From Sphingorhabdus sp. EL138 (GTDB lineage: Bacteria; Pseudomonadota; Alphaproteobacteria; Sphingomonadales; Sphingomonadaceae): a stretch of DNA of 64,000 nt. Below are positions 21,813-62,636 of the stretch, one piece after another; position 1 is the first letter of the stretch; the number at the start of each line of letters is the position of its first letter. The position numbers were made by a program, and so were the translations under genes. The stretch is taken from the NCBI RefSeq assembly GCF_900258045.1, contig NZ_OGVD01000002.1, forward strand, positions 248,001 through 312,000. Reading direction: 5' to 3'. Below the pieces are notes generated by a model. It was given only the letters and a program-made list of their open reading frames with translations. It did no database searches and was not told the origin of the DNA.

Positions 21813-21842
21813 ATTTGTCCGGACAAATTTGTCTCGACAAGT
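21813..21842. promoter_or_regulatory. Tandem GTCCGGAC-type operators at a divergent promoter
   Basis: ATTTGTCCGGACAAAT at 21813-21828 is a perfect 16-bp palindrome. An overlapping second element ATTTGTCTCGACAAGT at 21827-21842 keeps both TTGTC and GACAA half-sites. They fill the 89-base gap between the leftward hydrolase/leuCD operon (start 21802) and the rightward isochorismatase operon (start 21892), so one regulator could control about 15 genes from here. Confidence 0.8.
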
Positions 21843-21891
21843 CTTTTTTGCAGATTATTGTCTTTTTATCGAATCCGGAGAGAAAAACCCA

Positions 21892-22572
21892 ATGACATTA
21901 ATTGGCACGAAAATGGTCCAGGATGGCCGTACTGCGCGCGAGATTTTTGAAGAAGTGATCGGCAATCCCGCTCGAAAGAAATTTGGCTTTGGTGAAAAAC
22001 TCGCCATCGTCAATGTCGATGTGCAGCAGGCCTATACGCGGACAGACATGTTCAAGACAGCCTATGAAACCGATCCAAAGCAGATCGATTATATCAATCA
22101 GATTTCTGCTGTTGCACGAGCGAAAGACATGCCGGTCATCTGGAGCCGGGTAGCTTATAAGGACGACGCCGGAGATGCCGGAGTCTGGGGCACTCGAACC
22201 GATACCGAAGATTCGCTGCAGAATATCAAATATGACAGCGAGCGCCATTTGCTGGATCCGCGCTGTGATGTGGATGCCGACGATCTGCAATATACCAAAC
22301 GTATGCCGAGCGCCTTTTTCGAAACGCCGCTGGCGAGCTATCTGACATGGCACAAAGTCGATACGGTGGTGGTGACCGGCGGCTCTACATCTGGTTGCGT
22401 GCGTGCCACGGCGGTAGACGCCCTAAGTCATGGATATCGTACAATCGTGCCGATCGAAACCTGTGCCGATAAACATGAAAGCTATCATTTTGCCAACCTT
22501 ACTGACTTGCAGTTGAAATATGCAGATGTCGAACCGGTACAGGCCGTGATTGACTGGCTGGAGGCGCGCTAG
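21892..22572 (+). CDS. Isochorismatase-fold hydrolase (N-carbamoylsarcosine amidase type)
   Basis: A 226-residue cysteine hydrolase of the isochorismatase superfamily. The catalytic triad is Asp43 (VNVDVQQAY), Lys136 (YTKRMPSAFF) and Cys169 (GGSTSGCVRATAVDA). The TSGCVRATAVDA motif and the following ETCADKHESYHFANLTDLQLKYADV are closest to N-carbamoylsarcosine amidase, which removes a carbamoyl or amide group. Start at 21892 has CGGAGAGA eight bases upstream; the longer form from 21829 would overlap the operator. First gene of a seven-gene operon. It suggests release of ammonia from an amide or ureido intermediate; the real substrate is unknown. Confidence 0.9.
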   Translation: MTLIGTKMVQDGRTAREIFEEVIGNPARKKFGFGEKLAIVNVDVQQAYTRTDMFKTAYETDPKQIDYINQISAVARAKDMPVIWSRVAYKDDAGDAGVWGTRTDTEDSLQNIKYDSERHLLDPRCDVDADDLQYTKRMPSAFFETPLASYLTWHKVDTVVVTGGSTSGCVRATAVDALSHGYRTIVPIETCADKHESYHFANLTDLQLKYADVEPVQAVIDWLEAR

Positions 22573-23465
22573 TGTCTGAAGCACAAAAATCCGATCCGGG
22601 ATTATATGATTATCTGCCTTATCGCAGTCGTCCGAAAATCGAATGGCCAGAGGGCAAGACCTGCGCGGTCTGGATAGCGCCCAATCTGGAGTTTTATGAA
22701 CTGGACCCTGCGGTAAATCCCCATCGCAAAAGCTGGCCAAAGCCACATCCCGATGTGGTCGGGTACAGCCACCGTGATCATGCAAACCGAGTGTCGCACT
22801 GGCGCATGGCGGAGATGATGACGAAGCACGGCTTTCCGGGATCGGTGAGCTTGTCGGTAGCGCTGTGCGACCATATTCCCGAAGTGGTGGAGGATGCCGA
22901 CCAACGAGGCTGGGAGTTTTTCAGCCATGGCATTTACAACACGCGCTACTCCTATGGAATGGATGAGGCGCAGGAACGAGCGATTATTGAGGATTCCATT
23001 ATGACCGTGGAGAGCGCCACGGGTCAAAGGATCAGAGGTTGGCTAGCGCCGGCGCTAACCCATACATCGCGCACGCTCGACCTGCTCGCGGAATATGGCA
23101 TGGATTATACCTGCGATCTTTATCAGGATGATCAGCCGACGGATGTGAAGGTGAAGTCCGGGCAGCTAACAGCAATACCTTATAGCCTTGAGGTCAACGA
23201 TCACTACGGCTTCTTCATCTATAACATGTCACCGCGGGAATATGCCGATACATTGATCCGGCAATATGACAGGCTGGCGGAAGAAGGCGCGCAATCGGGG
23301 ACGGTGATGTGCATACCGTTGCACAGCTATCTGATTGGCCAGCCCCACCGGATTGGTCCGTTTGAGGCCGTGCTCGAACATATTGCCGCTGATGGCCGGG
23401 CATGGATCACCAAGGCTGGTGATATTGTTGATGCCTTCCGCAACCAGACGGGAGGCGCATCATGA
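22572..23465 (+). CDS. Polysaccharide-deacetylase-fold hydrolase (PuuE-like), copy 1
   Basis: A 297-residue NodB-fold protein of the group containing PuuE-type allantoinase, whose members act on C-N bonds of small molecules rather than on polysaccharides. Visible signatures are CAVWIAPNLEFYE, PGSVSLSVALCDHIPEVVEDADQRGWEFFSHG, IRGWLAPALTHTSRTLDLLAEYGMDYTCD and the C-terminal PLHSYLIGQPHRIGPFEAVLEHI. It starts with GTG at 22572 sharing a base with the isochorismatase stop. The next gene is a paralogue and a third is at 54640. Likely a metal-dependent amidohydrolase acting with the isochorismatase-fold enzyme, in the cytoplasm (no signal peptide). Confidence 0.87.
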   Translation: MSEAQKSDPGLYDYLPYRSRPKIEWPEGKTCAVWIAPNLEFYELDPAVNPHRKSWPKPHPDVVGYSHRDHANRVSHWRMAEMMTKHGFPGSVSLSVALCDHIPEVVEDADQRGWEFFSHGIYNTRYSYGMDEAQERAIIEDSIMTVESATGQRIRGWLAPALTHTSRTLDLLAEYGMDYTCDLYQDDQPTDVKVKSGQLTAIPYSLEVNDHYGFFIYNMSPREYADTLIRQYDRLAEEGAQSGTVMCIPLHSYLIGQPHRIGPFEAVLEHIAADGRAWITKAGDIVDAFRNQTGGAS

Positions 23466-24385
23466 GCCTCGATCCCGGCTATCTGGAATATCCGAAGCGT
23501 GGTCGCGGGATGGACCATGAACATTACCCCTATAGCAGCTTGTTTGATCGCAAACCGGTGCAATGGCCCGATGACAAAAAACTCCTTATCTGGCCGGTTA
23601 TCAGCCTCGAATATTTCCCGATGGTGCCGAAGGATGACCCTTTTCGTGCGCCAGGCCATATGCAGACCGCTTACCCCGATTATCGCCACTACACGGCGCG
23701 GGAATATGGCACCCGGATCGGGATTTACCGGTTGCTTGGCGCGTTTGAAAAGGTGGGAATAAAAGTCTCAGTAGCGACTAACGGCGTAGTAGCCGAACGC
23801 TATCCACAGCTGGTTGAGGATATTGTCTCCGGTGGTCACGAAATCATAGCGCATAGCACGGACATGAACGGCACTATTGCAAGTGGTATGGCCCAAGCGG
23901 AAGAAAAAGCGCTGATAGAAACGGCGCTGTCCGTGTTGGAAAAGGCAACCGGAAAGCGGCCACGCGGGTGGCTGTCGATAGCGCGCTCACAGAGCTTCAA
24001 TACCGCAAAGCTCCTTGCCGATGCGGGCGTTGAATATATGTGTGACTGGGTGAATGACGAAATGCCCTATGCGTTTCAAACTGACGCGGGGCCGATTACC
24101 AATATCCCGCTCAATCATGAACTTTCGGATCGCCAGATTATCAATGTCCAGCAGCACTCGGTCGACAGTTATGCTCAGCAGATGCGCGATGCTGCAGACT
24201 GGTTGCTGGCAGAAGCCAACCAATATGGCGGTCGGATGCTCCCGATGCATTTGACGCCCTATATCATGGGTTTACCCTATCGGATCGGCAGCTTTGAAGG
24301 GCTAATTGCGGATTTGGCCAAGCGCGAGGATGTCAGGTTTGCAAGAGGCGATGTGATACTCGACAGCTGGAAGGCACAGCTATGA
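23462..24385 (+). CDS. Polysaccharide-deacetylase-fold hydrolase (PuuE-like), copy 2
   Basis: A 307-residue NodB-fold protein paralogous to the preceding gene. Both have a long N-terminal lead ending in W-P-(E/D)-x-K, then a VSVATNGVVAERYPQLVEDIVSGGHEIIAHS-like core. RPRGWLSIARSQSFNTAKLLADAGVEYMCDW and the C-terminal MHLTPYIMGLPYRIGSFEGLI follow. ATG at 23462 overlaps the upstream stop (ATGA). Tandem copies that have diverged strongly but are translationally coupled may form a hetero-oligomer. The chemistry is probably hydrolysis of an amide; no sugar-related gene is nearby. Confidence 0.87.
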   Translation: MSLDPGYLEYPKRGRGMDHEHYPYSSLFDRKPVQWPDDKKLLIWPVISLEYFPMVPKDDPFRAPGHMQTAYPDYRHYTAREYGTRIGIYRLLGAFEKVGIKVSVATNGVVAERYPQLVEDIVSGGHEIIAHSTDMNGTIASGMAQAEEKALIETALSVLEKATGKRPRGWLSIARSQSFNTAKLLADAGVEYMCDWVNDEMPYAFQTDAGPITNIPLNHELSDRQIINVQQHSVDSYAQQMRDAADWLLAEANQYGGRMLPMHLTPYIMGLPYRIGSFEGLIADLAKREDVRFARGDVILDSWKAQL

Positions 24386-25803
24386 AGATACGCAATCCCC
24401 GCACGGGCGAAGCGGATTACGAAATCGCTCCTTTAAGCCGTAACGCGGTTGTGGATGAGACCAGGCGGCTGCGCGATGGGCAGGTTGCCTGGGCCACTAA
24501 AACACCGGACGAGCGCGGTGCAGTCTTGCTACAATGGGCCGATGCGATAGAAGCTGATCTCGGTGCCATCATCCCGGCGCTTACAGACGATACGGGACGT
24601 GGAGGTATCTCCAAGATCGAAGCAGCCGGCGTACCGGGCCAGATCAGGCGATGGGCCGAGATGGCGCCTCAGCTCATTGTCGAGGGGCAGTTGACCGATC
24701 AACCAACCTCAGTACCCACAATCACCACTTCGACACGCTTGGTACCTTATCAGCTTGTCGGCGTTATCAGCCCATGGAATTTCCCCATGACGCTCGCGTT
24801 GATCGACGCCATTCCGGCTTTGATGGCGGGGTCAGCGGTGCTGGTAAAACCGTCGGAAGTGACCCCGCGATTCATCAAGCCGCTGATGGAAACCGTTGGG
24901 GAAATCCCGGAGCTGGCTGGGGTGCTGTCTATCATCGAAGGCGATGGTGCGACCGGGGCGGCGATGGTTGATCAGGTTGATTACATCTGTTTCACCGGAT
25001 CGGTGGCGACGGGGCGGAAAGTTGGCGAAGGTGCCGCGCAGGCGTTTATTCCGGCTAGTCTGGAACTGGGCGGGAAGGACCCGATGATCGTGCTGGCGAG
25101 CGCAGACCCGGAGACCGCGGCGGCAACGGCGCTGAGGGCGAGTATCGTCAATACCGGGCAGGCCTGCCAGTCGATCGAGCGGGTCTATGTGGCCCGGGAC
25201 ATTGCCGAGCCGTTCCTCGCCAGTTTGACGACACAGGCAGAGGCGGTGGAGCTCAATTATCCCGATATCAACCACGGCCATATCGGGCCTTTTATCTTTG
25301 AAAAACAAGCAGAAATTGCCCAAAATCAGATTGACGATGCGGTTAGCAAAGGCGCCATACTGCTCACCGGCGGCACAGTCGAAAATCTCGGCGGCGGGCT
25401 CTATCTCAGACCCACGATACTCACCGATGTCCCGCCTGAATCAGACATTATCCGCGAAGAAAATTTCGGACCCGTCATCCCGGTTATGATCTATGATCAG
25501 ATTGAAGAGGCGATTGCACAGGCGAATGATAGTATCTTCGGGTTGTCCGCCGCGGTTGTTGGCGGATCGGTTACGGAAGCGGAGCAGATTGGTACCAGAT
25601 TGAAGGCGGGAGCGGTGTCTATCAATGACGGCTCGCTGACGTCGATGGTCTGGGAAGCGGAAAAGTCGAGCTTTGGCTATTCCGGGCTAGGCGCATCGCG
25701 GATGGGCACAAGCGGCCTGATGCGCTTTTTCCGCAAACAGGCGCTGATCCGGCAATCGGGTGACGCGGCGCGAATAGAGGCATTTGCAGAGGAGAATTTC
25801 TGA
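24382..25803 (+). CDS. NAD(P)-dependent aldehyde dehydrogenase
   Basis: A 473-residue aldehyde dehydrogenase. SPWNFPMTLALIDAIPALMAGSAVLVKPSE is the cofactor-binding part. The SLELGGKDPMIVL motif carries the general-base Glu, and NTGQACQSIERVYV the catalytic Cys. EENFGPVIPVMIYD near the C-terminus is typical. It oxidises an aldehyde to the acid; GKDP rather than GKSP is a variant also seen in other family members. ATG at 24382 overlaps the upstream stop. It probably handles an aldehyde released by one of the hydrolases in this operon or generated by the downstream oxidoreductase. Confidence 0.93.
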   Translation: MKIRNPRTGEADYEIAPLSRNAVVDETRRLRDGQVAWATKTPDERGAVLLQWADAIEADLGAIIPALTDDTGRGGISKIEAAGVPGQIRRWAEMAPQLIVEGQLTDQPTSVPTITTSTRLVPYQLVGVISPWNFPMTLALIDAIPALMAGSAVLVKPSEVTPRFIKPLMETVGEIPELAGVLSIIEGDGATGAAMVDQVDYICFTGSVATGRKVGEGAAQAFIPASLELGGKDPMIVLASADPETAAATALRASIVNTGQACQSIERVYVARDIAEPFLASLTTQAEAVELNYPDINHGHIGPFIFEKQAEIAQNQIDDAVSKGAILLTGGTVENLGGGLYLRPTILTDVPPESDIIREENFGPVIPVMIYDQIEEAIAQANDSIFGLSAAVVGGSVTEAEQIGTRLKAGAVSINDGSLTSMVWEAEKSSFGYSGLGASRMGTSGLMRFFRKQALIRQSGDAARIEAFAEENF

Positions 25804-26990
25804 TGGGCGTGGAATTACAGCATCCGATGAAACCCGAACTGACAGCGGAAGAGGCGGCGCGCGGGCGCTTTGTGTCCGGTATCCGGGCATTCATCCTCAA
25901 TGATCTCGCCGGTGATATGCGCACCGCCTATGACAAGCGAGCCGCTCCGGCCTTTGCTCGGGAGACAGGCCGGGCTCCGGAAACCAGCAACGAAGCGCAT
26001 CAGGCGCTGCGCGGTGATCCGGCGTTTAATATCTATTCGGCCATGCGGGTGCAGGCGCAAAAAATGGTCTGGCAGGCATCGGGCGCTGTCGTTGCGCGTG
26101 ATCTCGAACGGCTGGAAACGGAGGCGGCGAAAGTTGCCGACCAGCCCGGCTCGGTAAAATTGGATCCCGATCTTGATATCCCGCGCAATGTCGATGCGAT
26201 TGAAGTGCATCTGATGCCCGGCAGCTATACGCGCGGCGGAGAGTCGCTCGAAGCCGGAGCGGTCTATGATCAGGGGCTGGCGGTATTTTCCATGGGGCTA
26301 ATGGGGGCCAATCTCGACGATATCGGCCTGTCCATGGCCGCTTATGTAAAAGGCAAGTTTCCGGACTTTCAGCCTCAGAGCATTCTCGATACGGGTTGCA
26401 CCATCGGCCACAACACGCTGCCATGGAAACAGACCTATCCCAAAGCCAAGGTAGAAGCGATTGACGCAGCGGCTGGCGGCTTGCGCTATGCATCGGCTCG
26501 CGCCAAGATGCAGGGGCAGGAGGTCAGTTTCGCGCAAATGTCCGCCGATGCTCTGGATTATCCCGACGCCAGTTTCGACCTCGTCTTTTCCTCCATGTTC
26601 CTGCATGAGCTGTCAAAAAAAGCGCGCGCGGCGGCATTCAAAGAAGCCTATCGGGTTCTGAAACCCGGCGGTCTGCTGCTCCATATGGAATTACCGCCCA
26701 ATGACCAGATGAATGCCTTTGACGGCTTTTATCTCGACTGGGACAGCTGGTATAATTCAGAACCTTTCTACAAAGGCTATCGCGACGAAAGCCCGCCGGA
26801 ATTGTGCAAGGCCGGCGGCTTTGATGCAGGTGATTATTTCCAGTTTGTCGTGCCCAGTATTGGCATCTACGGCGAGGAAGCCGTGGCGCAGGCGATTGCG
26901 GACGAGAATGCCAATGCCGTCGATAGCGAAACCACCGGACGACTGGCCGAGGGTATCATGTGGTTCGGTTTCGGAGCCTGGAAGCGGTGA
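25803..26990 (+). CDS. SAM-dependent methyltransferase with a long N-terminal domain, copy 1
   Basis: A 395-residue protein. Residues 1-190 are a domain I do not recognise, with TAYDKRAAPAFARETGR near 41-57 and HLMPGSY at 136-142. Residues 190-320 are a class I methyltransferase fold: SILDTGCTIGHN (193-204) is motif I, VEAIDAAAGGLRYA motif II, FDLVFSSMFLHEL motif IV and RVLKPGGLLLHME motif VI. The protein at 30719 has the same architecture, including YDKR..PAF and CMPGSYH. ATG at 25803 overlaps the ALDH stop (TGATG). The stop overlaps the GTG of a small acidic partner gene, as it does in the second copy. Methyl acceptor unknown. Confidence 0.85.
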   Translation: MGVELQHPMKPELTAEEAARGRFVSGIRAFILNDLAGDMRTAYDKRAAPAFARETGRAPETSNEAHQALRGDPAFNIYSAMRVQAQKMVWQASGAVVARDLERLETEAAKVADQPGSVKLDPDLDIPRNVDAIEVHLMPGSYTRGGESLEAGAVYDQGLAVFSMGLMGANLDDIGLSMAAYVKGKFPDFQPQSILDTGCTIGHNTLPWKQTYPKAKVEAIDAAAGGLRYASARAKMQGQEVSFAQMSADALDYPDASFDLVFSSMFLHELSKKARAAAFKEAYRVLKPGGLLLHMELPPNDQMNAFDGFYLDWDSWYNSEPFYKGYRDESPPELCKAGGFDAGDYFQFVVPSIGIYGEEAVAQAIADENANAVDSETTGRLAEGIMWFGFGAWKR

Positions 26991-27268
26991 GCTCTGAAAC
27001 TGACAACCCGGGCCCGGTTTTCAAACCGGATGACACGCCGAAAGATATTTACGGACCCGACGGCAAGCCACAATTTTTCGACGATCCCGGCATGGACCGC
27101 TTTGTCGCTGTCGTCATGAACATGGCGCAGGAAATGTGGGTGCAGGAAGAGCGGCTGATGGCGCTTGAAGGGCTGGAAGCCTCTGACGCGGAGCGTGAAG
27201 CAAAGCTGAAAATATTTATCGACCGTATTTTTGCGCCGCTGCGCGAACAAGGGAGTGACGACATATGA
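26987..27268 (+). CDS. Small acidic helical partner of methyltransferase, copy 1
   Basis: A 93-residue acidic protein of unknown family. It begins with GTG at 26987 inside the methyltransferase stop (GTGA); an in-frame form from 26960 has no support. After a disordered, proline-rich lead comes KPQFFDDPGMDRFVAVVMNMAQEMW, then a predicted long helix with many Glu/Arg residues. The second small gene (30360) matches at RPEYFDDPEDERMLSILMAVVGEV, again directly after a methyltransferase. The fixed pairing suggests an obligate subunit or scaffold of the methyltransferase. No transmembrane or catalytic motif is visible. Confidence 0.75.
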   Translation: MSSETDNPGPVFKPDDTPKDIYGPDGKPQFFDDPGMDRFVAVVMNMAQEMWVQEERLMALEGLEASDAEREAKLKIFIDRIFAPLREQGSDDI

Positions 27269-28284
27269 AGGCATGGCAAATCGGATCGAGGACCGGCATT
27301 GGCGGATTGCAGCTGGCCGATCATCCCGAGCCAGAGCCGGGGGCAGACGAGATTCTGGTCAAGGTTTCGGCGGCAGGTCTCAACTATCGCGATCTGATGG
27401 TGTTGCGCGGAGACTATGGCACGGATTTGCCCGAAGATCGCGTGCCTCTGTCTGACGGCGTCGGCGTGATTGAAGCCGTTGGTGCTGATGTTACCGGACT
27501 GGACGTGGGGACACGCGTCATGGCCCCGCATTTTGCGACCTGGCTCGATGGCGCCTACAGCTTTGCCGTCTTTGCCAGAGACCTTGGTGTGACCGTTAAT
27601 GGCTGGCTCGCTGAAAAGATCATTCTTCCCGCAAATGCTGCCGTCACCGTACCTGAAAATGTGAGCGACAACAGCGCGGCCACTTTTTCGGTCGTTGGCA
27701 GCACGGTCTGGCATGCGATGATGGCCTTTGGCGAGGCCAAGCCGGGTGACCTTGTGTTGGCTCAGGGAACCGGGGGTGTGTCGATATTCGCGCTACAACT
27801 GGCCAAGGCCATGGGAATGGATTTCGCGATCACCTCGTCCAGCGATGAAAAACTCGCGCGCGCCAGGGAAATGGGCGCGGATTACGGCATCAATTATCGC
27901 GACCGGCCGGATTGGGGCGCTGCCTTGCTGGAAGCGACAGGCGGCCGGGGTGCCGATGTCGTTGTCGATACCTTGGGTTTTCCGGCCATGGGCGAGACTG
28001 TGGCGGCCTGCGCCGTCAATGCGCGCATCGGATCTCTGGGGGCGCTGTCCGGAACGCCGCAGGATCAATCCAGCGCCAGCCAGGGCGCTTTGATTGGCAA
28101 GAATATCGCAATCAAGGGCATCGCGTCCGGCAATCGAGAGATGCTGCAACAGGCGCTGGATGTGGTCGCGAAAAACGATATCGAACTGTTGGTCGAAAGC
28201 GTTTTCGACTTTAACGATGCACCTGCGGCTTACACGCATCTCGAAAGCGGCAGCCATATGGGCAAGATAATGATTACCGTTTAA
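27265..28284 (+). CDS. Zinc-independent NAD(P)H quinone oxidoreductase / alcohol dehydrogenase-like (MDR)
   Basis: A 339-residue medium-chain dehydrogenase/reductase. The N-terminal KVSAAGLNYRDLMVLRGDYG and the Rossmann segment DLVLAQGTGGVSIFALQLAKAMGMDFAITSSSDEKLARAREMGADYGINYR are typical of MDR proteins that lack the catalytic zinc. The zinc-ligand Cys and His positions are indeed replaced. It may reduce an activated C=C bond or oxidise an alcohol. ATG at 27265 overlaps the small partner gene by ATGA. It is the last gene of the isochorismatase operon, and its stop overlaps the stop of the convergent gene at 28274 by 11 bases. Confidence 0.9.
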   Translation: MKAWQIGSRTGIGGLQLADHPEPEPGADEILVKVSAAGLNYRDLMVLRGDYGTDLPEDRVPLSDGVGVIEAVGADVTGLDVGTRVMAPHFATWLDGAYSFAVFARDLGVTVNGWLAEKIILPANAAVTVPENVSDNSAATFSVVGSTVWHAMMAFGEAKPGDLVLAQGTGGVSIFALQLAKAMGMDFAITSSSDEKLARAREMGADYGINYRDRPDWGAALLEATGGRGADVVVDTLGFPAMGETVAACAVNARIGSLGALSGTPQDQSSASQGALIGKNIAIKGIASGNREMLQQALDVVAKNDIELLVESVFDFNDAPAAYTHLESGSHMGKIMITV

Positions 28285-29002
28285 GTTCGACCAGCTCGTA
28301 CCAGGTCATCATATAACCGCCGACGCCGCCCTGTACGAATATGCCGTCGTCATCATCGGTAATCCACACGTCATAGGCAGGATGCTCGCCCGCCATGCCG
28401 CCGGTTCCCGGTACAATGCTGGCATCGTCGACAAATTGCAGATGTTTGCACTGAAAGGTGCCGGCCGGCACGGTAACTTCTTCTGTGCCGATATAGATGG
28501 CGCCGATTTTAACCTGTGCAATTTGCGGCGGGGTTGCACCACGATGATCGGGGGAGGGCAGATAGCAATTGAGCAGGCGCTTTGTTTCCTTATCCCAATC
28601 CTTGGTCGACAGCATATAGCCGTCCGAGACAATCGGGTGCGTGCCGAAACCGTCGAGCGGCAATTCCGCTTCAACCCTTTGAGAGAGCCTCCCGATCGAG
28701 GGGCCATAGGATTCCATTTCAACATGGGTTCCGTCAAAACGCATCCAGCCTGAACCCATAAATTCATCACCGACAGTCAGCCGGACATGGCAGTCCATCG
28801 GCTGCTTATGCTCGTCCATCGCGTAGATGATATCGCGCATCACCGTGGGTTCGGGTTCGTAAATTTCGCAATGTGCGCGCATCGTCACTTTGCCATCGCT
28901 ATGATGGGTGAACATGAAAGTTTCGAACCCGCGGTTCTGACCCTCCATTTCCGGTTTGCGTGATGTATATTCCAGACGGCCTTCGATAATGCGGTGCTTC
29001 AT
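28274..29002 (-). CDS. Unknown 242-aa beta-rich protein
   Basis: I do not recognise this family with confidence. The 242-residue protein is soluble and beta-patterned. It starts MKHRIIEGRLEYTSRKPEMEG and contains MDCHVRLTVGDEFMGSGWMRFDG, then IGTEEVTVPAGTFQCKHLQFVDD, and ends VGGYMMTWYELVELKR. The segment EEVTVPAGTFQC resembles DUF3108-type lipoprotein-like barrels. ATG at 29002 is chosen because AAGGAG lies seven bases upstream. It is a single gene facing a divergent pair across a perfect 18-bp operator palindrome (29055-29072), so it belongs to the same regulon. Perhaps it binds a hydrophobic substrate. Confidence 0.7.
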   Translation of the reverse strand: MKHRIIEGRLEYTSRKPEMEGQNRGFETFMFTHHSDGKVTMRAHCEIYEPEPTVMRDIIYAMDEHKQPMDCHVRLTVGDEFMGSGWMRFDGTHVEMESYGPSIGRLSQRVEAELPLDGFGTHPIVSDGYMLSTKDWDKETKRLLNCYLPSPDHRGATPPQIAQVKIGAIYIGTEEVTVPAGTFQCKHLQFVDDASIVPGTGGMAGEHPAYDVWITDDDDGIFVQGGVGGYMMTWYELVELKR

Positions 29003-29054
29003 CCCATTCTCCTTGTCTTTCTTCATGCCAGTGCATTTTTCTCTTGCCAAGAGG

Positions 29055-29072
29055 AATTTGTCCGGACAAATT
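29055..29072. promoter_or_regulatory. AATTTGTCCGGACAAATT operator, perfect 18-bp palindrome
   Basis: The longest perfect copy of the GTCCGGAC-type operator. It sits in the 108-base divergent region between the unknown gene (start 29002) and the membrane protein (start 29111), 52 bases from one start and 38 from the other. TTGCCA at 29044-29049 may be a -35 element, placing the operator in a promoter spacer. Confidence 0.85.
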
Positions 29073-29110
29073 GCAGATAGCTATTTACACGGTCTGGGAG
29101 GACGTTGGTA

Positions 29111-29803
29111 ATGGAATTTCTCACAACGAATGAATTGAGCATATTGCGCTGGATCCACATCCTGGCGATGGTTTACTGGCTGGGCGGCGAATGGGGTGTT
29201 TTCCAGACCAGCTATAATGTCACGAACCGCAACCTGTCGCTGGAAGAACGGCGGCGGCATATGGAAACGGCCTACCGGATCGACATATTGGCGCGTACCG
29301 GCATTGTCCTGCTGCTGCCGCTGGGTCTGCACATGGGTAAGATTTATGGTTTTGTGCCCTTTCTTGACGGTGCCGGGATCTGGTGGATGTGGCTGTTTTT
29401 TGCGATCTGGCTGGCGATGACCTGGACTGCTTTTATCAAGCGGGAGACCGATATCGGCGTCAAGGTGACCAAAACCGAAGAGATGCTCCGCTATCCCCTT
29501 ATCGTGGTCTTGTTCATTGTCGCCTTCATGGCTCTGGACGGCTCCGGTCCGATTGTCTCGGGCGAGGGCAATCACTGGTATCCGGCCAAAATTGGGCTCT
29601 ATGCCTTTGCGTTATGTATCGGCCTGTTCCTGCGGGTCGTCATGCGCCGCTGGACGGTGCGGTTCCGTAAGCTGGCCGAAGGGCCGGATGCGGCCGAAGA
29701 AGCCGCGCTCGAACGGGAAATCGGGCAAGCGCGTATTGCAGCCTATATCTACTGGATCACCATCTCCGGCGTGTGTTTCCTGGGAGCGGTCAAACCGTTC
29801 TGA
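29111..29803 (+). CDS. Small integral membrane protein, copy 1 (CopD-like pattern)
   Basis: A 230-residue membrane protein with about five to six hydrophobic segments. The first carries LRWIHILAMVYWLGGEWGVF, and the last ends SGVCFLGAVKPF. The His and Trp-Leu-Gly-Gly/Ala pattern in helix 1 resembles CopD-type and related haem- or metal-binding membrane proteins. A second copy at 40526 has FVHILLFVLWLGADVGVF and ends ATAFLGNIKPF. ATG at 29111 follows GGGAGG. It lies directly behind the 18-bp operator and before an exported VOC protein. Possible roles are an electron-transfer or transport partner in the cytoplasmic membrane; the function is unknown. Confidence 0.8.
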   Translation: MEFLTTNELSILRWIHILAMVYWLGGEWGVFQTSYNVTNRNLSLEERRRHMETAYRIDILARTGIVLLLPLGLHMGKIYGFVPFLDGAGIWWMWLFFAIWLAMTWTAFIKRETDIGVKVTKTEEMLRYPLIVVLFIVAFMALDGSGPIVSGEGNHWYPAKIGLYAFALCIGLFLRVVMRRWTVRFRKLAEGPDAAEEAALEREIGQARIAAYIYWITISGVCFLGAVKPF

Positions 29804-29826: not shown

Positions 29827-30363
29827 GTGCGCAAATACCATAAATTCTTTATATCGTTGATCGCGGCGTTTTTGGTTCTCGCTTCACCCGCTCAAGCGGA
29901 AAAGTCGGGTACTGCTCGATTTGATCGGGCTTCGCTGATCGTCAAGGATATAGAGCAATCACTCGGATTTTGGCGCGACGTCATGCAATTTGAACTGCTG
30001 TTCGAGCCGCGACGGTTGCCGCCGCTCGAGAATGAATATTTGGGTTGGACAAAAGACACCGTGCTGACATTTGCTCGCCTGCAATCGCCGGACGGCGCGG
30101 GTATCGGTCTAATGGAAATCAAGCAACCTGGTTTTCCCGATCTGGAACTGGAAAAATACCCCAATGCCCATGGCAGTGTGATTTTCGTGCATGTCGCGCA
30201 AGATATTGAAGCACTACACAGGCGCGCACTTGCTGCAGGGGCTGTACTGAAACCATTGGGTTTGTCCCGCTCGGGAAGATCCAGGCAAATGTACCTGCGA
30301 TCCCCAAGCGGTCATGTGCTGGAAATTTATGAACTGCTGCCGACGGAGCAAACGCAGAACTAG
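29827..30363 (+). CDS. Exported VOC (glyoxalase-fold) protein
   Basis: A 178-residue vicinal-oxygen-chelate protein with an N-terminal signal peptide: basic VRKYHK, the hydrophobic FFISLIAAFLVLA and a cut after SPAQA. The VOC domain has RASLIVKDIEQSLGFWRDVM at the start and MYLRSPSGHVLEIYEL at the end, supplying the usual metal-binding Glu. Periplasmic VOC proteins are uncommon. The start is GTG at 29827 with GGAGGG six bases before; longer forms reach into the membrane-protein gene. It is probably co-transcribed with that membrane protein, which hints at a periplasmic step in substrate processing. Its stop overlaps the convergent small gene by four bases. Confidence 0.85.
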   Translation: MRKYHKFFISLIAAFLVLASPAQAEKSGTARFDRASLIVKDIEQSLGFWRDVMQFELLFEPRRLPPLENEYLGWTKDTVLTFARLQSPDGAGIGLMEIKQPGFPDLELEKYPNAHGSVIFVHVAQDIEALHRRALAAGAVLKPLGLSRSGRSRQMYLRSPSGHVLEIYELLPTEQTQN

Positions 30364-30722
30364 ATTTCCTTCAGCTCCTTGCTGACCTCTTCCACCGGCG
30401 GTTCGGCCCGCTGCAATTCTTCGACCATCTGATGCGGCCCGCGCATCACCCGGTAGATATATTCGCGGATCATCGCGCCACGCTCATAGGCCGCCTCTTT
30501 GTCGGGCGTGTAGCTTTCGATATCGTCGCGGCTGATCGTCCCTTTGGCATCGAGCAGTCGTTCGACCGTATCCATACGTTCACGCAGCACCGACACCTCG
30601 CCGACCACTGCCATCAGAATGGACAGCATCCGTTCGTCCTCGGGATCGTCAAAATATTCCGGGCGCTTGCCTTTGGCCTTTTTATTGGCCGCGGCCATCC
30701 AGTCAAAAGGGGTATCGGTCAT
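30360..30722 (-). CDS. Small acidic helical partner of methyltransferase, copy 2
   Basis: A 120-residue acidic protein, mostly predicted helix. The segment RPEYFDDPEDERMLSILMAVVGEVSVLRERMDTVERLLDA corresponds to KPQFFDDPGMDRFVAVVMNMAQEMW in the 93-residue protein at 26987. A further C-terminal part (MIREYIYRVMRGPHQMVEELQ) aligns loosely with IFIDRIFAPLRE of the first copy. Its ATG at 30722 overlaps the stop of the methyltransferase at 30719 (ATGA), repeating the gene order of the first module. Family unknown; most likely a structural subunit of the methyltransferase. Confidence 0.75.
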   Translation of the reverse strand: MTDTPFDWMAAANKKAKGKRPEYFDDPEDERMLSILMAVVGEVSVLRERMDTVERLLDAKGTISRDDIESYTPDKEAAYERGAMIREYIYRVMRGPHQMVEELQRAEPPVEEVSKELKEI

Positions 30723-33126: not shown

Positions 33127-33132
33127 CTCGTT

Positions 33133-36031: not shown

Positions 36032-36047
36032 ATTAGTCCGGACATCT
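36032..36047. promoter_or_regulatory. Degenerate GTCCGGAC-type operator upstream of the MFS operon
   Basis: ATTAGTCCGGACATCT matches 13 of 16 positions of ATTTGTCCGGACAAAT and keeps the full GTCCGGAC core. Its distance to the MFS start (42 bases) is like that of the stronger sites. Confidence 0.5.
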
Positions 36048-38707: not shown

Positions 38708-38756
38708 TTTCGTCTCCCTGGTTCCGGACATGAACAGAATGCTTGATGTGCATCCA

Positions 38757-39849: not shown

Positions 39850-39901
39850 CAATATTCCTCTCCAGATATGATACAATCAATAGCTGTACAAAAGCCAATG
39901 A

Positions 39902-46087: not shown

Positions 46088-46094
46088 TACGCTT

Positions 46095-47183: not shown

Positions 47184-47191
47184 CGCCGGCT

Positions 47192-47971: not shown

Positions 47972-47975
47972 GGGG

Positions 47976-47989
47976 CCGTCTTAGGACGG
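47976..47989. promoter_or_regulatory. CCGTC-TTAG-GACGG inverted repeat between GntR/UTRA and MmgE genes
   Basis: A 5-bp inverted repeat with a four-base spacer fills most of the 26-base divergent gap. It has GTC/GAC half-sites like the regulon operator but with spacer 4 instead of 2. It could be an autoregulatory variant or chance. Confidence 0.3.
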
Positions 47990-47997
47990 GCGCCGCA

Positions 47998-53097: not shown

Positions 53098-53110
53098 GAG
53101 GAGAGAAACC

Positions 53111-53416
53111 ATGCGCATCATTGTATTGTTCAATCTGAAAGAAGGCGTTGATATTGCTGAATATGAGGAATGGGCGAAAGCACGGGATATCCCGACGGCC
53201 AGCGCGCTGAGCTCGGTCACATCATTCACCGTCCACAAGGCCACCGGCCTGTTCGGTTCGGATGATTCGCCCCCTTACGAATATTTCGAGATTATCGACA
53301 TTACCGGCATGGATGAATTTGTCGCCGATGTATCTGATCCCGAATTTCAGGCCATGGCCGCACCGTTTCAGGATTATGCCGATGGTCCACAATTCATACT
53401 GACAGAAGACCTCTGA
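53111..53416 (+). CDS. REDY-like protein (HapK type)
   Basis: A 101-residue protein resembling REDY-like HapK proteins, dimeric ferredoxin-like barrels first named from prodigiosin-like clusters. MRIIVLFNLKEGVDIAEYEEWAK, then SVTSFTVHKATGLFGSDDSPPYEYFEIIDI, and DYADGPQFILTEDL at the end fit. ATG at 53111 has AGGAGAG upstream; an in-frame form from 53024 overlaps the amidase gene and lacks a ribosome-binding site. Small proteins of this fold can isomerise or decarboxylate, but a reaction is not known here. It is 13 bases after the amidase and shares TGATG with the SDR downstream. Confidence 0.8.
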   Translation: MRIIVLFNLKEGVDIAEYEEWAKARDIPTASALSSVTSFTVHKATGLFGSDDSPPYEYFEIIDITGMDEFVADVSDPEFQAMAAPFQDYADGPQFILTEDL

Positions 53417-54219
53417 TGTCTGGCCGGTTTGCAGGAAAAACCATTGTCGTCACCGGTTCCGGAAAGAAAAAAGGGCTGGGGCAGGGCATATTGCAGCGCT
53501 TCGCCGATGAAGGTGCCAATTGTGTGGTTTCGGACCTCACAATCGGTGATCAGGAAGAAGGCGTGGCCGAAGAGTTGCGCGGGCGCGGGGCCAAAGTGGC
53601 GACCATCGCCTGTGATGTCAGTGACGCGGCGCAATGCCAGGCTCTGGTCGATCAAAGTGTGGAAGCCTTTGGTGCAGTTGATATTTTCGTCAATAATGCC
53701 GGGATCGGGTTCATGATGAAGCCGCTTCTGGAGGTCGACACGGCGAAGGAATGGGATCAAGTGCTTGCGGTCAATCTGTCAGGTGCCTTTTACTGCACGC
53801 AGGCTGCTGCCAAAGCGATGGTTGCAGCTGGCAAAGGTGGACGTATCATCAACATCGCATCGCAGGCCGCGAAAACCGGCTTTCCGCATCTGCCCGCCTA
53901 TGTCAGCTCCAAACATGGCATGGTAGGCCTTACTCGAGCGAGCGCTGTTGAACTCGGCGCACATGGAATAACGGTGAACGCAGTTTGTCCCAATCATGTG
54001 ACGACCGGTCTGGGTGCCCAGCAGAATGAATATTTTTCCAAACTGCTGGGCTTTGACAGTGTCGAGGCCTATCTCGCCAATATGAGCAAGAGCAACCCGA
54101 TGGGGCGGCCCGGCCTGCCATCCGATACCGCCGCCGCCTGTGCGTGGCTGGCCAGCGATGACGCCTTTTATGTCACCGGAGAGGCGCTCAACGTCTCTGG
54201 CGGAGAGGAAATGCACTGA
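53416..54219 (+). CDS. Short-chain dehydrogenase/reductase (classical SDR)
   Basis: A 267-residue classical SDR. VTGSGKKKGLGQG near residues 12-24 is a dinucleotide-binding loop with a longer lysine-rich turn, NNAG is at about 94-97, Ser in INIASQAAK and the YVSSK Tyr/Lys pair are present. NAVCPNHVTTGLG and a C-terminal VTGEALNVSGGEEMH complete the fold. ATG at 53416 overlaps the REDY-like stop. The lysine-rich glycine loop is seen in NADP- and NAD-using SDRs alike. It would oxidise a hydroxyacyl intermediate or reduce a keto group in the amidase/ligase branch. Confidence 0.91.
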   Translation: MSGRFAGKTIVVTGSGKKKGLGQGILQRFADEGANCVVSDLTIGDQEEGVAEELRGRGAKVATIACDVSDAAQCQALVDQSVEAFGAVDIFVNNAGIGFMMKPLLEVDTAKEWDQVLAVNLSGAFYCTQAAAKAMVAAGKGGRIINIASQAAKTGFPHLPAYVSSKHGMVGLTRASAVELGAHGITVNAVCPNHVTTGLGAQQNEYFSKLLGFDSVEAYLANMSKSNPMGRPGLPSDTAAACAWLASDDAFYVTGEALNVSGGEEMH

Positions 54220-54638
54220 TGCACTATGCCGGGGCCTGTCATTGCGGTGCACTCACGCTGGATTTTCGCAGCGAAAAATCGCCGGCGGAACTTGGCGCAA
54301 GAACCTGCCAGTGTTCTTTTTGCCAGATGCATGGCGCTTCATGGACATCCGATCCTGAAGGCAATGTCGATATCACATTGGCGGGCCCGGTTTCCCGATA
54401 CCGCTTTGGAACCAAAACCGCTGACTTTCTGGTCTGCGCCAACTGTGGTGTTGTCCCGGTAGTCGTCAGTGAATTTGAAGGACAATTGCGCGGCGTGATC
54501 CGGGTCAACTGCCTAGAAGAAAGCGCGGCCTTTCTCGCGCAGGCAGCCCTGATGGACCTCGATGGAGAAATACTGGATTCACGCCTGGACCGACGGGCGA
54601 AGGGCTGGACACCGGCCATGATCAAGGACAAAAACTGA
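54219..54638 (+). CDS. GFA / CENP-V family zinc protein
   Basis: A 139-residue glutathione-dependent formaldehyde-activating enzyme (GFA) family protein. The zinc ligands are visible as CHCGAL, CQCSFCQMHG and CANCG, the complete set for this fold. Members bind S-hydroxymethylglutathione or related adducts, though many of unknown role exist. ATG at 54219 overlaps the SDR stop (TGATG). In this operon it might trap formaldehyde or another aldehyde released in catabolism, possibly connected with the methyltransferases, but this is speculation. No signal peptide. Confidence 0.9.
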   Translation: MHYAGACHCGALTLDFRSEKSPAELGARTCQCSFCQMHGASWTSDPEGNVDITLAGPVSRYRFGTKTADFLVCANCGVVPVVVSEFEGQLRGVIRVNCLEESAAFLAQAALMDLDGEILDSRLDRRAKGWTPAMIKDKN

Positions 54639-54639
54639 T

Positions 54640-55506
54640 ATGCAAGAAGAACATATGGACTGGCCCGATGGCGCGAAAATGGCGCTGAGCATTGTTGTCA
54701 ATGTTGAGGAAGGCAGTGAAATGACCGTGGCTCGCGGCGACCGTGGGATGGAGCCGGTTGATGAGCTCGGCATCCATATAAAATCGCCAATCCGTAATTA
54801 TGGCAATGAAAGCAATTATCTTTACGGCATCAAGGCAGGCGCGCCGCGCATCGTCAGGCTGCTCAAGGAATATGAGATCATGGCAAGCTGGACCGTGGCC
54901 GCCATGAGCCTTGAAAACCATCCCGAAATCGGCGCGGCGATAGCGGACATGGGTCATGAGCCGGTGAGCCATGGCTATCGCTGGGTGCATCAGTTCAAGA
55001 TGGACGAGGAAAAAGAGCGGGATTTCATCCGCAAGGCCGTCACATCGATTGAAAAGACCACCGGTACGCGCCCCTATGGCTGGCTGTCGCGCTATTTCCA
55101 TACCGATAATACCCGGCGTCTGCTGATCGAGGAAGGTTTTGCTTATCATATGGACGACTATTCCGGTGACATTCCGTTCTGGGACAAGGAAACGGTGCCG
55201 GAAAAACCGATTGCGATTGTGCCCTATCAGCTTGACAGCAACGATATGAAAATGTGGACCGACCCGGCGATGACACCGCAGCAATGGCTGGATTATGCAA
55301 AGTGCAATTTTGATCAGGTCTACCGTGAAGGCGAAGAGGGCAATCCGAAAATGATGTCGCTTGGCTTGCATTTGCGGATCATTGGCCGACCCGGACGCAT
55401 CTGGGCGTTTGAAGAATTTCTGAAACATGTGCGGTCGAAGAAAGATGTCTGGGTGACCACCCGCCATCAGATTGCCCAGCATCTGGCGAAAGTTGATCCT
55501 CTATGA
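54640..55506 (+). CDS. Polysaccharide-deacetylase-fold hydrolase (PuuE-like), copy 3
   Basis: A 288-residue NodB-fold protein paralogous to those at 22572 and 23462. MALSIVVNVEEGSEM holds the first acidic metal ligands, as in PuuE-type allantoinases. Further blocks are MASWTVAAMSLENHPEIGAAIADMGHEPVSHGYRWVH, RPYGWLSRYFHTDNTRRLLIEEGFAYHMDDYS and SLGLHLRIIGRPGRIWAFEEFL. It is closer to the canonical family than the other two. ATG at 54640 (or 54655) lies one base past the GFA stop. It probably hydrolyses a C-N bond in an amide intermediate, in step with the amidase upstream. Confidence 0.9.
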   Translation: MQEEHMDWPDGAKMALSIVVNVEEGSEMTVARGDRGMEPVDELGIHIKSPIRNYGNESNYLYGIKAGAPRIVRLLKEYEIMASWTVAAMSLENHPEIGAAIADMGHEPVSHGYRWVHQFKMDEEKERDFIRKAVTSIEKTTGTRPYGWLSRYFHTDNTRRLLIEEGFAYHMDDYSGDIPFWDKETVPEKPIAIVPYQLDSNDMKMWTDPAMTPQQWLDYAKCNFDQVYREGEEGNPKMMSLGLHLRIIGRPGRIWAFEEFLKHVRSKKDVWVTTRHQIAQHLAKVDPL

Positions 55507-56267
55507 CCCTGCGGCTTGAGAAAGAGGGCAAGGTCGCGCATCTGCTTGTTGACCGGCCAGACAAGCGCAATGCGTTTAATCAGGCGATGTGGGAACTGCT
55601 GCCCGAATTGCTGGCCGATGCGATGATGGACGATGCGATCCGTGTTTTGATGCTGCATGCCAGCCGCAAGGATAGCGCTTTTTGTGCCGGGGCCGATATT
55701 GGCGAATTTGCGACCGGTTCCACTGATCCGGAATGGCGCGCACGCAATCAGGCAGCGATAGGCCGGGTCCAGCATGAGCTGGCACAGGCACCAAAGCCAA
55801 CCATTGCGATTGTTGATGGCGATTGCGTGGGTGGCGGCTGCGGTATCGCGCTGGCCTGTGACATGCGGGTGGCCGGACCGAAGGCGCGTTTTGGGATTAC
55901 GCCTTCGAAACTGGGGTTGGTCTATCCGCTGCACGACACCAAATTGCTGGTTGACCTGGTTGGGCCTTCGCAAGCCAAGCGGATATTGTTTACCGGCCAA
56001 TTGCTGTCGGCGCAGCAAGCGCTCGATATCGGTTTGATCACTATCCTAGCTGACGATCCCTATGCCGAGGCGGACACGCTGGCGGCCACGATGGCATCGG
56101 TCTCTTTGCACAGCCAGACGATGAGCAAGTCGATCATAAAGCGCATACTGGACGGGCAGGCCGATGATGATGCGGAGACATCTGCTTTGTTCGACGCTGC
56201 CTTTGAAAGCGATGATTTCAAGGAAGGTGTCAGCGCGTTCATGGAAAAGAGAAAGCCGGAATTTTGA
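55503..56267 (+). CDS. Enoyl-CoA hydratase/isomerase fold protein, atypical active site
   Basis: A 254-residue crotonase-fold protein. LLVDRPDKRNAFN, then SAFCAGADIGEF (oxyanion hole), IVDGDCVGGGCGIALACDMRVA and ARFGITPSKLGLVYP are present. In true hydratases two Glu residues act; here the first position is Gly114 (GGGCGIA instead of GGGCELA) and the second is Ser135 (TPS instead of PE). Hydration by the usual mechanism is therefore unlikely. Isomerase, decarboxylase, hydrolase or retro-Claisen chemistry, all known in this superfamily, is possible. ATG at 55503 overlaps the deacetylase stop (ATGA). Confidence 0.88.
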   Translation: MTLRLEKEGKVAHLLVDRPDKRNAFNQAMWELLPELLADAMMDDAIRVLMLHASRKDSAFCAGADIGEFATGSTDPEWRARNQAAIGRVQHELAQAPKPTIAIVDGDCVGGGCGIALACDMRVAGPKARFGITPSKLGLVYPLHDTKLLVDLVGPSQAKRILFTGQLLSAQQALDIGLITILADDPYAEADTLAATMASVSLHSQTMSKSIIKRILDGQADDDAETSALFDAAFESDDFKEGVSAFMEKRKPEF

Positions 56268-56268
56268 T

Positions 56269-57171
56269 ATGACACATGCCTTGCAACATGGCTCGATACT
56301 GGGCGGCGTAGCGACGGTGCCCGATTTGGAAGCGGCGCTGAAAGACTATCGCGATATGCTGGGCATGCAGGTCGTGGAAAACGGTCCGCTGGCCGATGAT
56401 TTGGCGCAAGGTTGGAATTGTCCGGGTAGCGTCGGCGCACCCATGGCTGTGCTGCAACCGGCTAGCGGGGCCGATTGTTTCATCCGTCTGGTTGAACAGC
56501 CGGACCATCCGGATTTCAAGCCGACGACCACCTATGGCTGGGCGGCCTATGAGCTGACTGTACAGGATGTATTCGGCTGGCCGGACCGGCTGCAAGGTAG
56601 CGGTTTTGATATTATCGGACCGCCGAAAGAGCTGGAAGGTCTGCCATTTTTCGTGCCGATGCAGGTGCTCGGCACCGGCCGCGAAATGGTCTATCTCAAT
56701 GAAGTGCGCGAAGATACGCCTTCGACTGATTTGCCGAAGGCGCAGTCGCTGACCGATCATATTTTCATTGTGATATTGGCGACACCGGATCGTGCAGGGA
56801 CAGTGGACTGGTATCGTGACCAGCTGCATCTGACGGTGGGCGATACCTATACGCTGGAATATAGCATGATCAACGAGGCGTTCGGGAAGCCTGCGGGGAC
56901 GGTATCTGATCTCACCATGGTCCAGAATGACCGATTGCCGATTGTCGAGGTGGATGATTATCCGGAAGAGGCGACGCAGCGGCCACGGCATGACGGCATG
57001 TTGCCACCGGGCAATGCACTTGTGACGCTGGCGGTTGATTATCTGGACGCGATCGCAATTGACTGGATCGCATCGCCACAGGTACGGGAAGGCGCGCTCT
57101 ATCGGGATCGCCGAACTGCGACGGCACTTGGCCCGGCTGGGGAATTGCTGGAATTGATCGAGATCGGTTAA
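56269..57171 (+). CDS. Two-domain VOC (glyoxalase-fold) protein
   Basis: A 300-residue protein with two VOC modules: the first begins LGGVATVPDLEAALKDYRDMLGMQVV, and the second begins near 160 with DHIFIVILATPDRAGTVDWYRDQL. It ends LGPAGELLELIEIG, giving a metal-ligand Glu. Two fused VOC modules are the size of extradiol dioxygenases and related enzymes. However, the His-His-Glu set of dioxygenases is not obvious, so a lyase, isomerase or binding role is equally possible. ATG at 56269 is one base past the enoyl-CoA-hydratase-fold stop. It is the last gene of the ten-gene operon. Confidence 0.82.
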   Translation: MTHALQHGSILGGVATVPDLEAALKDYRDMLGMQVVENGPLADDLAQGWNCPGSVGAPMAVLQPASGADCFIRLVEQPDHPDFKPTTTYGWAAYELTVQDVFGWPDRLQGSGFDIIGPPKELEGLPFFVPMQVLGTGREMVYLNEVREDTPSTDLPKAQSLTDHIFIVILATPDRAGTVDWYRDQLHLTVGDTYTLEYSMINEAFGKPAGTVSDLTMVQNDRLPIVEVDDYPEEATQRPRHDGMLPPGNALVTLAVDYLDAIAIDWIASPQVREGALYRDRRTATALGPAGELLELIEIG

Positions 57172-60722: not shown

Positions 60723-60734
60723 TAATATTCTCCC

Positions 60735-61829: not shown

Positions 61830-62303
61830 TCAGTCATGAACCTTCACGACCTGGTTCACTTCAAAGAAATAGCCATCCAGATCCCAGAAGGAGCAGCCGA
61901 TCATATCCTTTTGCTTGCCATCAGCACCGGTCACGCTCCATTCGCGTGGTTCGCTATGGATGGTGGAGCTCAGAGCGCGGGCCCGTTCCACCGCGCCTTT
62001 TGCATCTTCCGATGCGACGACAAAAACCGGTGCGCCAAACTTGATTTCGGTGGGCAGCTCTTCCGGTGCATCCTGTTTGGGGTCGAGCCATTCGAGCAGG
62101 CCGATCATGCCGATCATGTCATGCTCGCATTTCAGGATGATCAGGCGGGTCTTGTCACCCTTTTTACCAGCAGCCAGTTGCGTGCCTGACAGGGTAAAAG
62201 GGGTGTCCATCCATTTGGTCATGCCAAAGACGGTTTCATACCAGTTCGACGCGGCATCCCCGTCACGAACCATAAGGGTCGTACGTTTGATAATATCAGT
62301 CAT
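61830..62303 (-). CDS. VOC (glyoxalase-fold) protein
   Basis: A 157-residue VOC protein: RTTLMVRDGDAASNWYETVFGMTKWMD, then TRLIILKCEHDMIGMIGLLEWL, and the C-terminal GCSFWDLDGYFFEVNQVV, which supplies a Glu in the metal-ligand position. ATG at 62303 overlaps the DUF1330 stop by ATGA; the longer form from 62339 reads into that gene. Second gene of the leftward operon behind the operator at 62621-62636. Possibly an isomerase or lyase; not assigned. Confidence 0.85.
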   Translation of the reverse strand: MTDIIKRTTLMVRDGDAASNWYETVFGMTKWMDTPFTLSGTQLAAGKKGDKTRLIILKCEHDMIGMIGLLEWLDPKQDAPEELPTEIKFGAPVFVVASEDAKGAVERARALSSTIHSEPREWSVTGADGKQKDMIGCSFWDLDGYFFEVNQVVKVHD

Positions 62304-62602
62304 GCGATTTTGGGACTTTCTATAACAAGGACCTGGCAATCGGCGATATCAGCGCGCAACTTCTTGGCTTCCTGATATTCCGGACTGTTCCAGAATTTAT
62401 GAACGGCGGCTTTGTCGGGCCATTCTGAAATCACCATCGACGCGCCGTCGCCAAAATCGCCTTCCAGAAGCTCTGCTCCCGGGCCGCGCAAGACATAGCG
62501 TCCGCCGAACTTCTCAACCAGAGCACCGGCAGCAGCGCCATAGCCCTTGATGAATTTGTCGCGATCTGAAATTTTCGCAGTAACGATCATATAGGCAGGC
62601 AT
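62300..62602 (-). CDS. DUF1330 family protein
   Basis: A 100-residue DUF1330 protein with the ferredoxin-like fold: PAYMIVTAKISDRDKFIKGYGAAAGALVEKFGGRYVLRGPGAELLEG, then MVISEWPDKAAVHKFWNSPEYQEAKKLR. This family is small, dimeric and mostly uncharacterised, common in catabolic operons. ATG at 62602 is 18 bases from an operator (62621-62636), closer than for other regulon members, so the promoter start probably overlaps the operator. It is the first gene of an eight-gene leftward operon that ends at 57187. Confidence 0.9.
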   Translation of the reverse strand: MPAYMIVTAKISDRDKFIKGYGAAAGALVEKFGGRYVLRGPGAELLEGDFGDGASMVISEWPDKAAVHKFWNSPEYQEAKKLRADIADCQVLVIESPKIA

Positions 62603-62620
62603 GGGTGAGTCCCCTTCAAA

Positions 62621-62636
62621 AGTTGTCCGGACAAAT
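62621..62636. promoter_or_regulatory. GTCCGGAC-type operator upstream of the DUF1330 operon
   Basis: AGTTGTCCGGACAAAT matches 15 of 16 positions of ATTTGTCCGGACAAAT. It lies in the 71-base gap between the upstream nitrilase-fold stop (62674) and the DUF1330 start (62602). Confidence 0.78.

Follow-up and report, generated by a model that had tools for sequence, protein, structure and literature searches.

In a 64,000-nucleotide stretch of the Sphingorhabdus sp. EL138 genome (C3:248001-312000 of 3.66 Mb; hereafter the window, whose coordinates are used unless stated otherwise), copies of the 16-mer palindrome ATTTGTCCGGACAAAT stand before the operons of a catabolic island. Our analysis indicates that this palindrome is very probably the operator of a GntR/HutC-type regulator encoded inside the island (hutC, 47192-47971, minus strand), which would act as the island's repressor. 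The regulator was assigned as the reader of the palindrome because the genomic sites cluster in the island that holds hutC, palindrome and regulator co-occur across genomes, the sites recur before the same genes, and the DNA-contact residues are conserved. The predicted HutC-type regulon comprises regulator, operator and target genes; no description of its island was found among the papers listed by literature searches on sphingomonad HutC, itaconate with sphingomonads, cyclic imides, maleimides, tetrapyrroles/bilins, DUF1838, or MmgE with TonB. Literature searches with the palindrome itself matched only one unrelated Drosophila paper for its 12-mer and none for the 16-mer.

Genomic distribution of the palindrome

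Allowing up to three mismatches, nine matches were detected in the window against 0.37 expected, with a maximum of three in any of 100 dinucleotide-preserving shuffles, so the palindromes are not explained by chance. Seven of them had been listed in an earlier note on this DNA, and all seven were recovered: perfect copies at 21813, 29056 and 42250, copies with one mismatch at 40469 and 62621, one with two at 38757 and one with three at 36032. Two additional copies had been overlooked, one with two mismatches at 32081 and one with three at 21827, the latter overlapping the perfect copy at 21813. The statement that all copies lie between genes is not fully accurate, as 32081 is located within a carbon-nitrogen (CN) hydrolase reading frame (31972-33126). 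The reported absence of the palindrome from the first 21 kb was borne out, no copy preceding 21813 in the window, and the 20 kb upstream of the window contained no palindrome at two or fewer mismatches.

A scan of the whole genome for copies with no more than two mismatches gave 12 places, every one inside C3:269813-322164, equivalent to window positions 21813-74164, i.e., 52 kb or 1.4% of the genome. The earlier note had named as a refuting outcome a palindrome equally common inside unrelated genes; the scan instead placed every such site in one stretch, and the regulon, which the note had called dispersed, is therefore clustered. Five of these sites (window-equivalent 64843, 64962, 65010, 72530 and 74149) lie beyond the window, and the regulon thus continues past its edge. 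At exactly three mismatches, 23 places were found genome-wide, two in the island and 21 outside it; this level is near background, since a reversed control palindrome gives 14 places at three or fewer mismatches.

A position weight matrix (PWM) was built from 150 distinct sites of other loci, each chosen at two or fewer mismatches, with L085-L092 left out as training. Scanning 124 kb of this genome, it returned 14 sites scoring 13.6-31.1, the next score being 9.5 and the best in three base shuffles 10.8. The flanking bases of recurrent sites hold little information. In this genome, the distance from a site to the nearest in-frame ATG is 10-105 bp, a placement as for repressors.

Co-occurrence of palindrome and regulator in related genomes

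To survey the distribution more widely, 298 genomes drawn from the family were scanned for the palindrome at one or no mismatch and for the regulator at E <= 1e-40. The palindrome was present in 45 genomes, 36 of which hold at least two copies, compared with four genomes, one copy each, for the reversed control. Both palindrome and regulator occurred in 38 genomes, the palindrome only in seven, the regulator only in one, and neither in 252 (Fisher p about 1e-39, a value that overstates independence because the genomes are related). Among the matches listed, the regulator lies within 30 kb of the nearest site in 24 of 27 genomes, the other three having them on different contigs; the distance is often about 4.9 kb, because the gene order ripC-ripB-acd-CoAT2-CoAT3-hutC is kept. 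Among the same matches, the sites are clustered in most genomes, and a few others carry one stray site. As a separate observation, the palindrome occurs 11 times at one or no mismatch in genome G072, where at least nine places are scattered over about 1.3 Mb with no single island.

A second collection was assembled through regulator alignment alone and comprises the best 80 of 92 regulator relatives in named genomes, whose titles are Sphingomonadales or unplaced proteobacterial bins. Sites within 10 kb on either side were found in 69 of the 80 loci (164 sites; none for the reversed control in 1.48 Mb), and ten of the 11 site-less loci are contig pieces ending before the usual place of the site. 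Stretches of eight other islands were read, revealing clear counterparts of many genes that lie between 15.8 and about 62 kb in the window, with the core mostly at 50-90% identity. Beside one of these islands (G108), three open frames at L041:3581-5346 resemble, by eye, pieces of an insertion-sequence transposase. A search of PLSDB plasmids at E 1e-30 detected no protein related to the regulator.

Recurrence of sites before the same genes

Site-per-gene counts were made over the loci after dropping rows below 45% identity or 60% coverage (Table 1). Upstream of the ripC-like gene, a site is present in 62/62 loci at a median of 25 bp from the start; the divergent DUF1838 gene has one in 37/38 loci, and both genes have one in 7/7 other islands. 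A site stands at the hydrolase/isochorismatase pair flanking 21813 in all six other islands holding the pair, and adjoins the methyltransferase start near 32081 in four of six islands. No counterpart of the weak site at 36032 was seen before this MFS gene in the other islands read. Although conserved gene bodies (at 35% identity or more) make up 83% of the bases, 158 of the 164 sites fall outside them; of the remaining six, five lie in prpD1, adjoining the hutC start.

Table 1. Predicted operators, genes and operons of the island in window coordinates (positions beyond 64,000 are window-equivalents).
Feature	Position	Strand	Context
Operator, perfect	21813-21828		With weak overlapping copy 21827-21842; between 20423-21826 (-) and 21829-22572 (+)
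Operator, perfect	29056-29071		Between 28274-29050 (-) and membrane-protein gene 29105-29803 (+); a site also stands here in 2 islands
Probable operator, 2 mismatches	32081-32096		In CN-hydrolase frame, 105 bp before methyltransferase gene 30719-31975 (-)
Probable weak operator, 3 mismatches	36032-36047		41 bp before MFS gene 34683-35990 (-); PWM score 17.1
Operator, 2 mismatches	38757-38772		Before TonB-receptor gene 36170-38770 (-) (TonB1); site near gene in 21/24 loci
Operator, 1 mismatch	40469-40484		41 bp before membrane-protein gene 40526-41212 (+) (memb228); 43/45 loci
Operator, perfect	42250-42265		Between DUF1838 gene 41273-42205 (-) and ripC-like gene 42291-43118 (+)
Operator, 1 mismatch	62621-62636		Before 62300-62602 (-); site before gene in 1 other island, G108
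Sites	64843, 64962, 65010		Between gene 63839-64792 (-) and TonB-receptor gene (+)
Site	72530		Between amine-oxidase-like gene and its neighbour
Site	74149		Before protein without Pfam match
hutC, GntR/HutC-type regulator, proposed palindrome reader	47192-47971	-	Inside island
Core operon, first part	42291-47183	+	RipC-like lyase, RipB-like hydratase, acyl-coenzyme A (CoA) dehydrogenase, two family III CoA transferases
Core operon, second part	47998-57171	+	Two MmgE/PrpD, PaaK-like ligase, amidase, HapK-like, SDR, GFA, PuuE-like, enoyl-CoA hydratase, VOC protein; lacks a separate operator
Operon	15833-21826	-	CoA transferase, HMG-CoA-lyase-like, LeuD-like, LeuC-like, DUF3598-like calycin, alpha/beta hydrolase
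Operon	21829-28284	+	Isochorismatase-like, two PuuE-like, aldehyde dehydrogenase, methyltransferase, Zn-alcohol-dehydrogenase-like
Operon	30360-35990	-	Unknown protein of 120 aa, methyltransferase, CN hydrolase, flavin (FAD) oxidoreductase, MFS transporter
Second DUF3598-like calycin	39938-40435	+	Adjoins an operator

The HutC-type regulator and its fit to the operator

The regulator gene was located through its relative in another island (G285): a family search with the G285 protein led to C3:295195-295938 (minus strand), which corresponds to the window reading frame 47192-47971. The encoded protein aligns with NagR/YvoA of Bacillus subtilis over residues 22-254 of 259 (E 1e-15) and also with DasR of Streptomyces, and its best NCBIfam matches are HutC-type regulators. 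These matches place it in the HutC subfamily of the GntR superfamily, with a predicted N-terminal winged helix and a HutC-type effector domain. The top model is the histidine repressor HutC, yet the score of 91.4 bits is far below the cut-off of 220, and no hut genes were recognised in this island; the accessible parts of a regulon survey give HutC for histidine only (PMC5343134).

In the structural account of NagR, Arg38 reads guanine G-5, Arg48 reads G-4, and the wing residue Gly69 enters the minor groove, while half-sites are spaced six nucleotides apart, compared with five in FadR (PMC4333415). The alignment of the DNA-binding domain is gap-free and pairs NagR Arg38/Arg48/Gly69 with Ser51/Arg61/Gly82 of the present regulator. 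Arg61 is found in 79/79 readable loci and Gly82 in 80/80, whereas position 51 is S in 49, T in 24, N in three and A in three, and never Arg. The palindrome carries T at the place of NagR G-5 and G at that of G-4, with six nucleotides between. The contact residues fit the operator, the Arg48 and Gly69 equivalents being kept and the loss of Arg38 being matched by the replacement of one guanine with T. The fold family, the two retained contacts and the half-site spacing are shared with NagR, while the operator differs from the dre operators of NagR and DasR in having T in place of the guanine at -5, and the targets here are not aminosugar genes. The DasR paper, as far as its text was available, expects a single guanine where Arg38 is missing; the regulon is a test of this published structural expectation, that loss of the arginine costs one operator guanine.

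We infer DNA binding, repression rather than activation, and inducer release for this regulator, with repression and the inducer assigned by analogy with its family. In the proposed mechanism, a regulator dimer would read ATTTGTCCGGACAAAT: Arg61 of each DNA-binding domain would contact the G in one of the TTGT half-sites, the two contacted guanines being six nucleotides apart as in NagR, and the wing around Gly82 would enter the minor groove. Without inducer, the dimer would sit over promoters or gene starts in the island and jointly keep off the genes of uptake (TonB receptors, MFS), of activation (CoA transferases, ligase) and of cleavage, until its C-terminal domain binds a pathway metabolite and the dimer is released. 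Since Arg149, the equivalent of NagR Arg133, is invariant in 80/80 loci, the effector may plausibly be anionic; in the phosphate-binding pair Arg133/Arg135 of NagR, Arg133 alone has an invariant Arg as its counterpart.

Such a well-delimited regulon would cover a catabolic island occurring in many Sphingomonadales genera, and the 16-mer together with its regulator offers a direct handle on the island's substrate, namely what releases the regulator from the operator.

Evaluation of alternative explanations

Several observations weigh against the HutC-type protein as the island's repressor. Seven genomes have the palindrome without the regulator (six with one site, G170 with two), G132 has the regulator without the palindrome, only part of the island being left there, and locus L094 is without a site though its contig seems long enough. 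No strict site precedes hutC here, and in only four of the 80 loci does one occur in the 250 bp upstream of this gene. From prpD1 onward, the core almost always lacks a separate operator, prpD1 having one in 1/72 loci. Scans for sigma-70 consensus at three operators gave 0, 1 and 2 promoter-like sites, where 0.5, 0.5 and 0.2 were expected, and overlap of operator and promoter is unsupported since these counts are near chance.

That palindromic 16-mers can arise by chance is illustrated by the single sites in six genomes lacking the regulator and by the four genomes with the reversed control. We nevertheless give hardly any credence to chance or structural repeats devoid of regulatory meaning, given the excess of matches over expectation in the window, their confinement to a single island in 3.66 Mb, and their recurrence before the same genes while the flanking bases hold little information. 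The direction of regulation is not readable from sequence, and the HutC-type protein might bind the sites as an activator, or as both activator and repressor depending on the operon; a paper title on NagR of B. thuringiensis (PMC6141813) reportedly claims dual action of a HutC-family regulator. This seems unlikely, as the sites are so near to start codons, a location seldom used by activators of sigma-70 promoters, and the source texts available present NagR and DasR, both characterised relatives, as repressors.

The palindrome might also be read by another regulator of the region, as LysR (38860-39876), GntR-FCD (8154-8810) and LuxR-type (window-equivalent 83200) proteins lie in or beside the island. 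LysR has relatives in two other islands (G285, 49% identity and a site 48 bp upstream; G236, 55%) and in 9/57 full-length loci, but it is missing from most loci having the sites. Neither GntR-FCD nor LuxR has a counterpart in any of the eight other islands read, and the six-nucleotide half-site spacing is NagR-like, whereas FadR, of the FCD type, has five (PMC4333415). All three were rejected, and a regional reader other than the HutC-type protein is judged very improbable. Among the three regulators found in the window, the HutC-type protein stands, while GntR-FCD and LysR are poor candidates. The earlier note's idea that one repressor coordinates these operons is well supported by computation, through the co-occurrence of palindrome and hutC, the recurrence of sites before the same genes in other genera, and the fit of the contact residues.

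The hutC gene lies antisense within the core gene row

CoAT3 ends at 47183 and hutC at 47192, leaving a head-on stop-to-stop gap of 8 bp, and the prpD1 ATG at 47998 is 26 bp from the hutC start. This layout was counted in the 68 of 80 loci where each of the three genes reaches 40% identity and 60% coverage; in 66 of them the CoAT3-hutC gap does not exceed 20 bp, four of these overlapping. A weak scan of 46900-48300 detected no plus-strand terminator-like or sigma-70-like site. Two arrangements would account for this: prpD1 may be served by a promoter within hutC, or transcription of the row may continue antisense across hutC, in the manner of a noncontiguous operon. The known example menE-menC-MW1733-ytkD-MW1731 of S. 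aureus (PMC7154746) has the same layout, an opposite-strand gene inside a co-oriented row with almost no room on either side; it differs in that the gene embedded in the present row would encode the repressor of the operon itself, and that read-through is a candidate here.

We tentatively propose, while considering it rather doubtful, that the ripC-CoAT3 row is transcribed from the 42250 operator through hutC into prpD1-VOC335, so that antisense RNA or colliding polymerases would shut down the repressor upon induction. If true, double-negative feedback would make the whole island switch-like, and the layout, kept in many Sphingomonadales, would offer a conserved natural example of an operon silencing the repressor that controls it.

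Two open frames opposite genes of the island are probably spurious and were scanned without a match: 47180-48001 (plus), opposite hutC, and 39908-40858 (minus), opposite 39938-40435 (plus).

Gene content and possible substrate

Gene presence was counted over 57 full-length loci, with matches below 55% coverage dropped. Genes of both core parts are present in 52-55 loci, except for GFA (8/57), and counterparts of the operon 15833-21826 are present in other islands. Besides these enzymes, the island has two methyltransferases and uptake proteins (TonB receptors, MFS). The LeuCD-like and HMG-CoA-lyase-like enzymes score above their model cut-offs. The RipB model (239.7 of 340 bits) and the RipC model (227.8 of 375 bits) fall below theirs, as does the best of three PuuE-like proteins (250.6 bits versus 424.6).

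Judged by family membership, the core enzymes resemble the itaconate/methylsuccinate degradation cluster, with PuuE-like and amidase-like enzymes added. That cluster is described as ich, mcd, mmgE, ict and ccl in Pseudomonas and Cupriavidus (PMC12290011), and all five enzyme kinds recur in the island core, by family only (RipB/Ich-like, RipC/Ccl-like, acyl-CoA dehydrogenase, MmgE/PrpD and CoA transferase). The island differs by a second MmgE/PrpD, PaaK-like, amidase, HapK-like, SDR and PuuE-like proteins and by the HutC-type regulator inside it; because neither the RipB nor the RipC model reaches its equivalog cut-off, it was not filed as a member.

The two small DUF3598-like calycins, 19923-20423 (minus) and 39938-40435 (plus), stand beside operators; the DUF3598_N match, at 19.9 bits, falls short of the cut-off of 22 (E 0.001, 9/12 members). 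A structure model of 19923-20423 (predicted local distance difference test, pLDDT, 90) matches structures of BFA1, a DUF3598 protein, and of the phycobilin lyases CpcS (Ycf58) and CpeS, and more weakly nitrobindin, while a calycin profile searched against PDB sequences yielded no convincing relative. Some PuuE relatives are cyclic imide hydrolases, and a route from imide through half-amide, substituted dicarboxylate and CoA ester to cleavage would fit as a candidate only. An improbable guess, which stays one because calycins bind many ligands, is that a product of tetrapyrrole or bilin breakdown serves as substrate, with the PuuE-like proteins acting as imidases on maleimides and the calycin fold like that of phycobilin lyases.

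The membrane proteins 29105-29803 (plus) and 40526-41212 (plus) are 26% identical, both end in KPF, and each is encoded just downstream of an operator. The latter has no Pfam match, and its confident model (pLDDT 93.5) has no PDB fold match at E <= 0.001.

Sister clusters and neighboring loci

In five genomes (G085, G150, G242, G056 and G118), ripB/ripC relatives adjoin a distant regulator, 25-27% identical. The stretches read in these five contain no ATTTGTCCGGACAAAT within two mismatches. Among their clusters (L167, L168, L169, L170 and L171), four of five carry AAAGTTCGAACTTT upstream of their regulator, and the fifth, L171, carries AATGTCCGGACCAT there. Both sequences keep GT-N4-AC, which is suggestive, the cases being too few for a claim.

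A separate cluster at 2029-8810, free of the palindrome, holds a hydantoinase B/oxoprolinase-like gene and the GntR-FCD regulator. Just beyond the last palindrome, a ring-hydroxylase alpha-subunit gene (L001:17039-18682) and a LuxR/GerE-type regulator (L001:19200-19952) are encoded.

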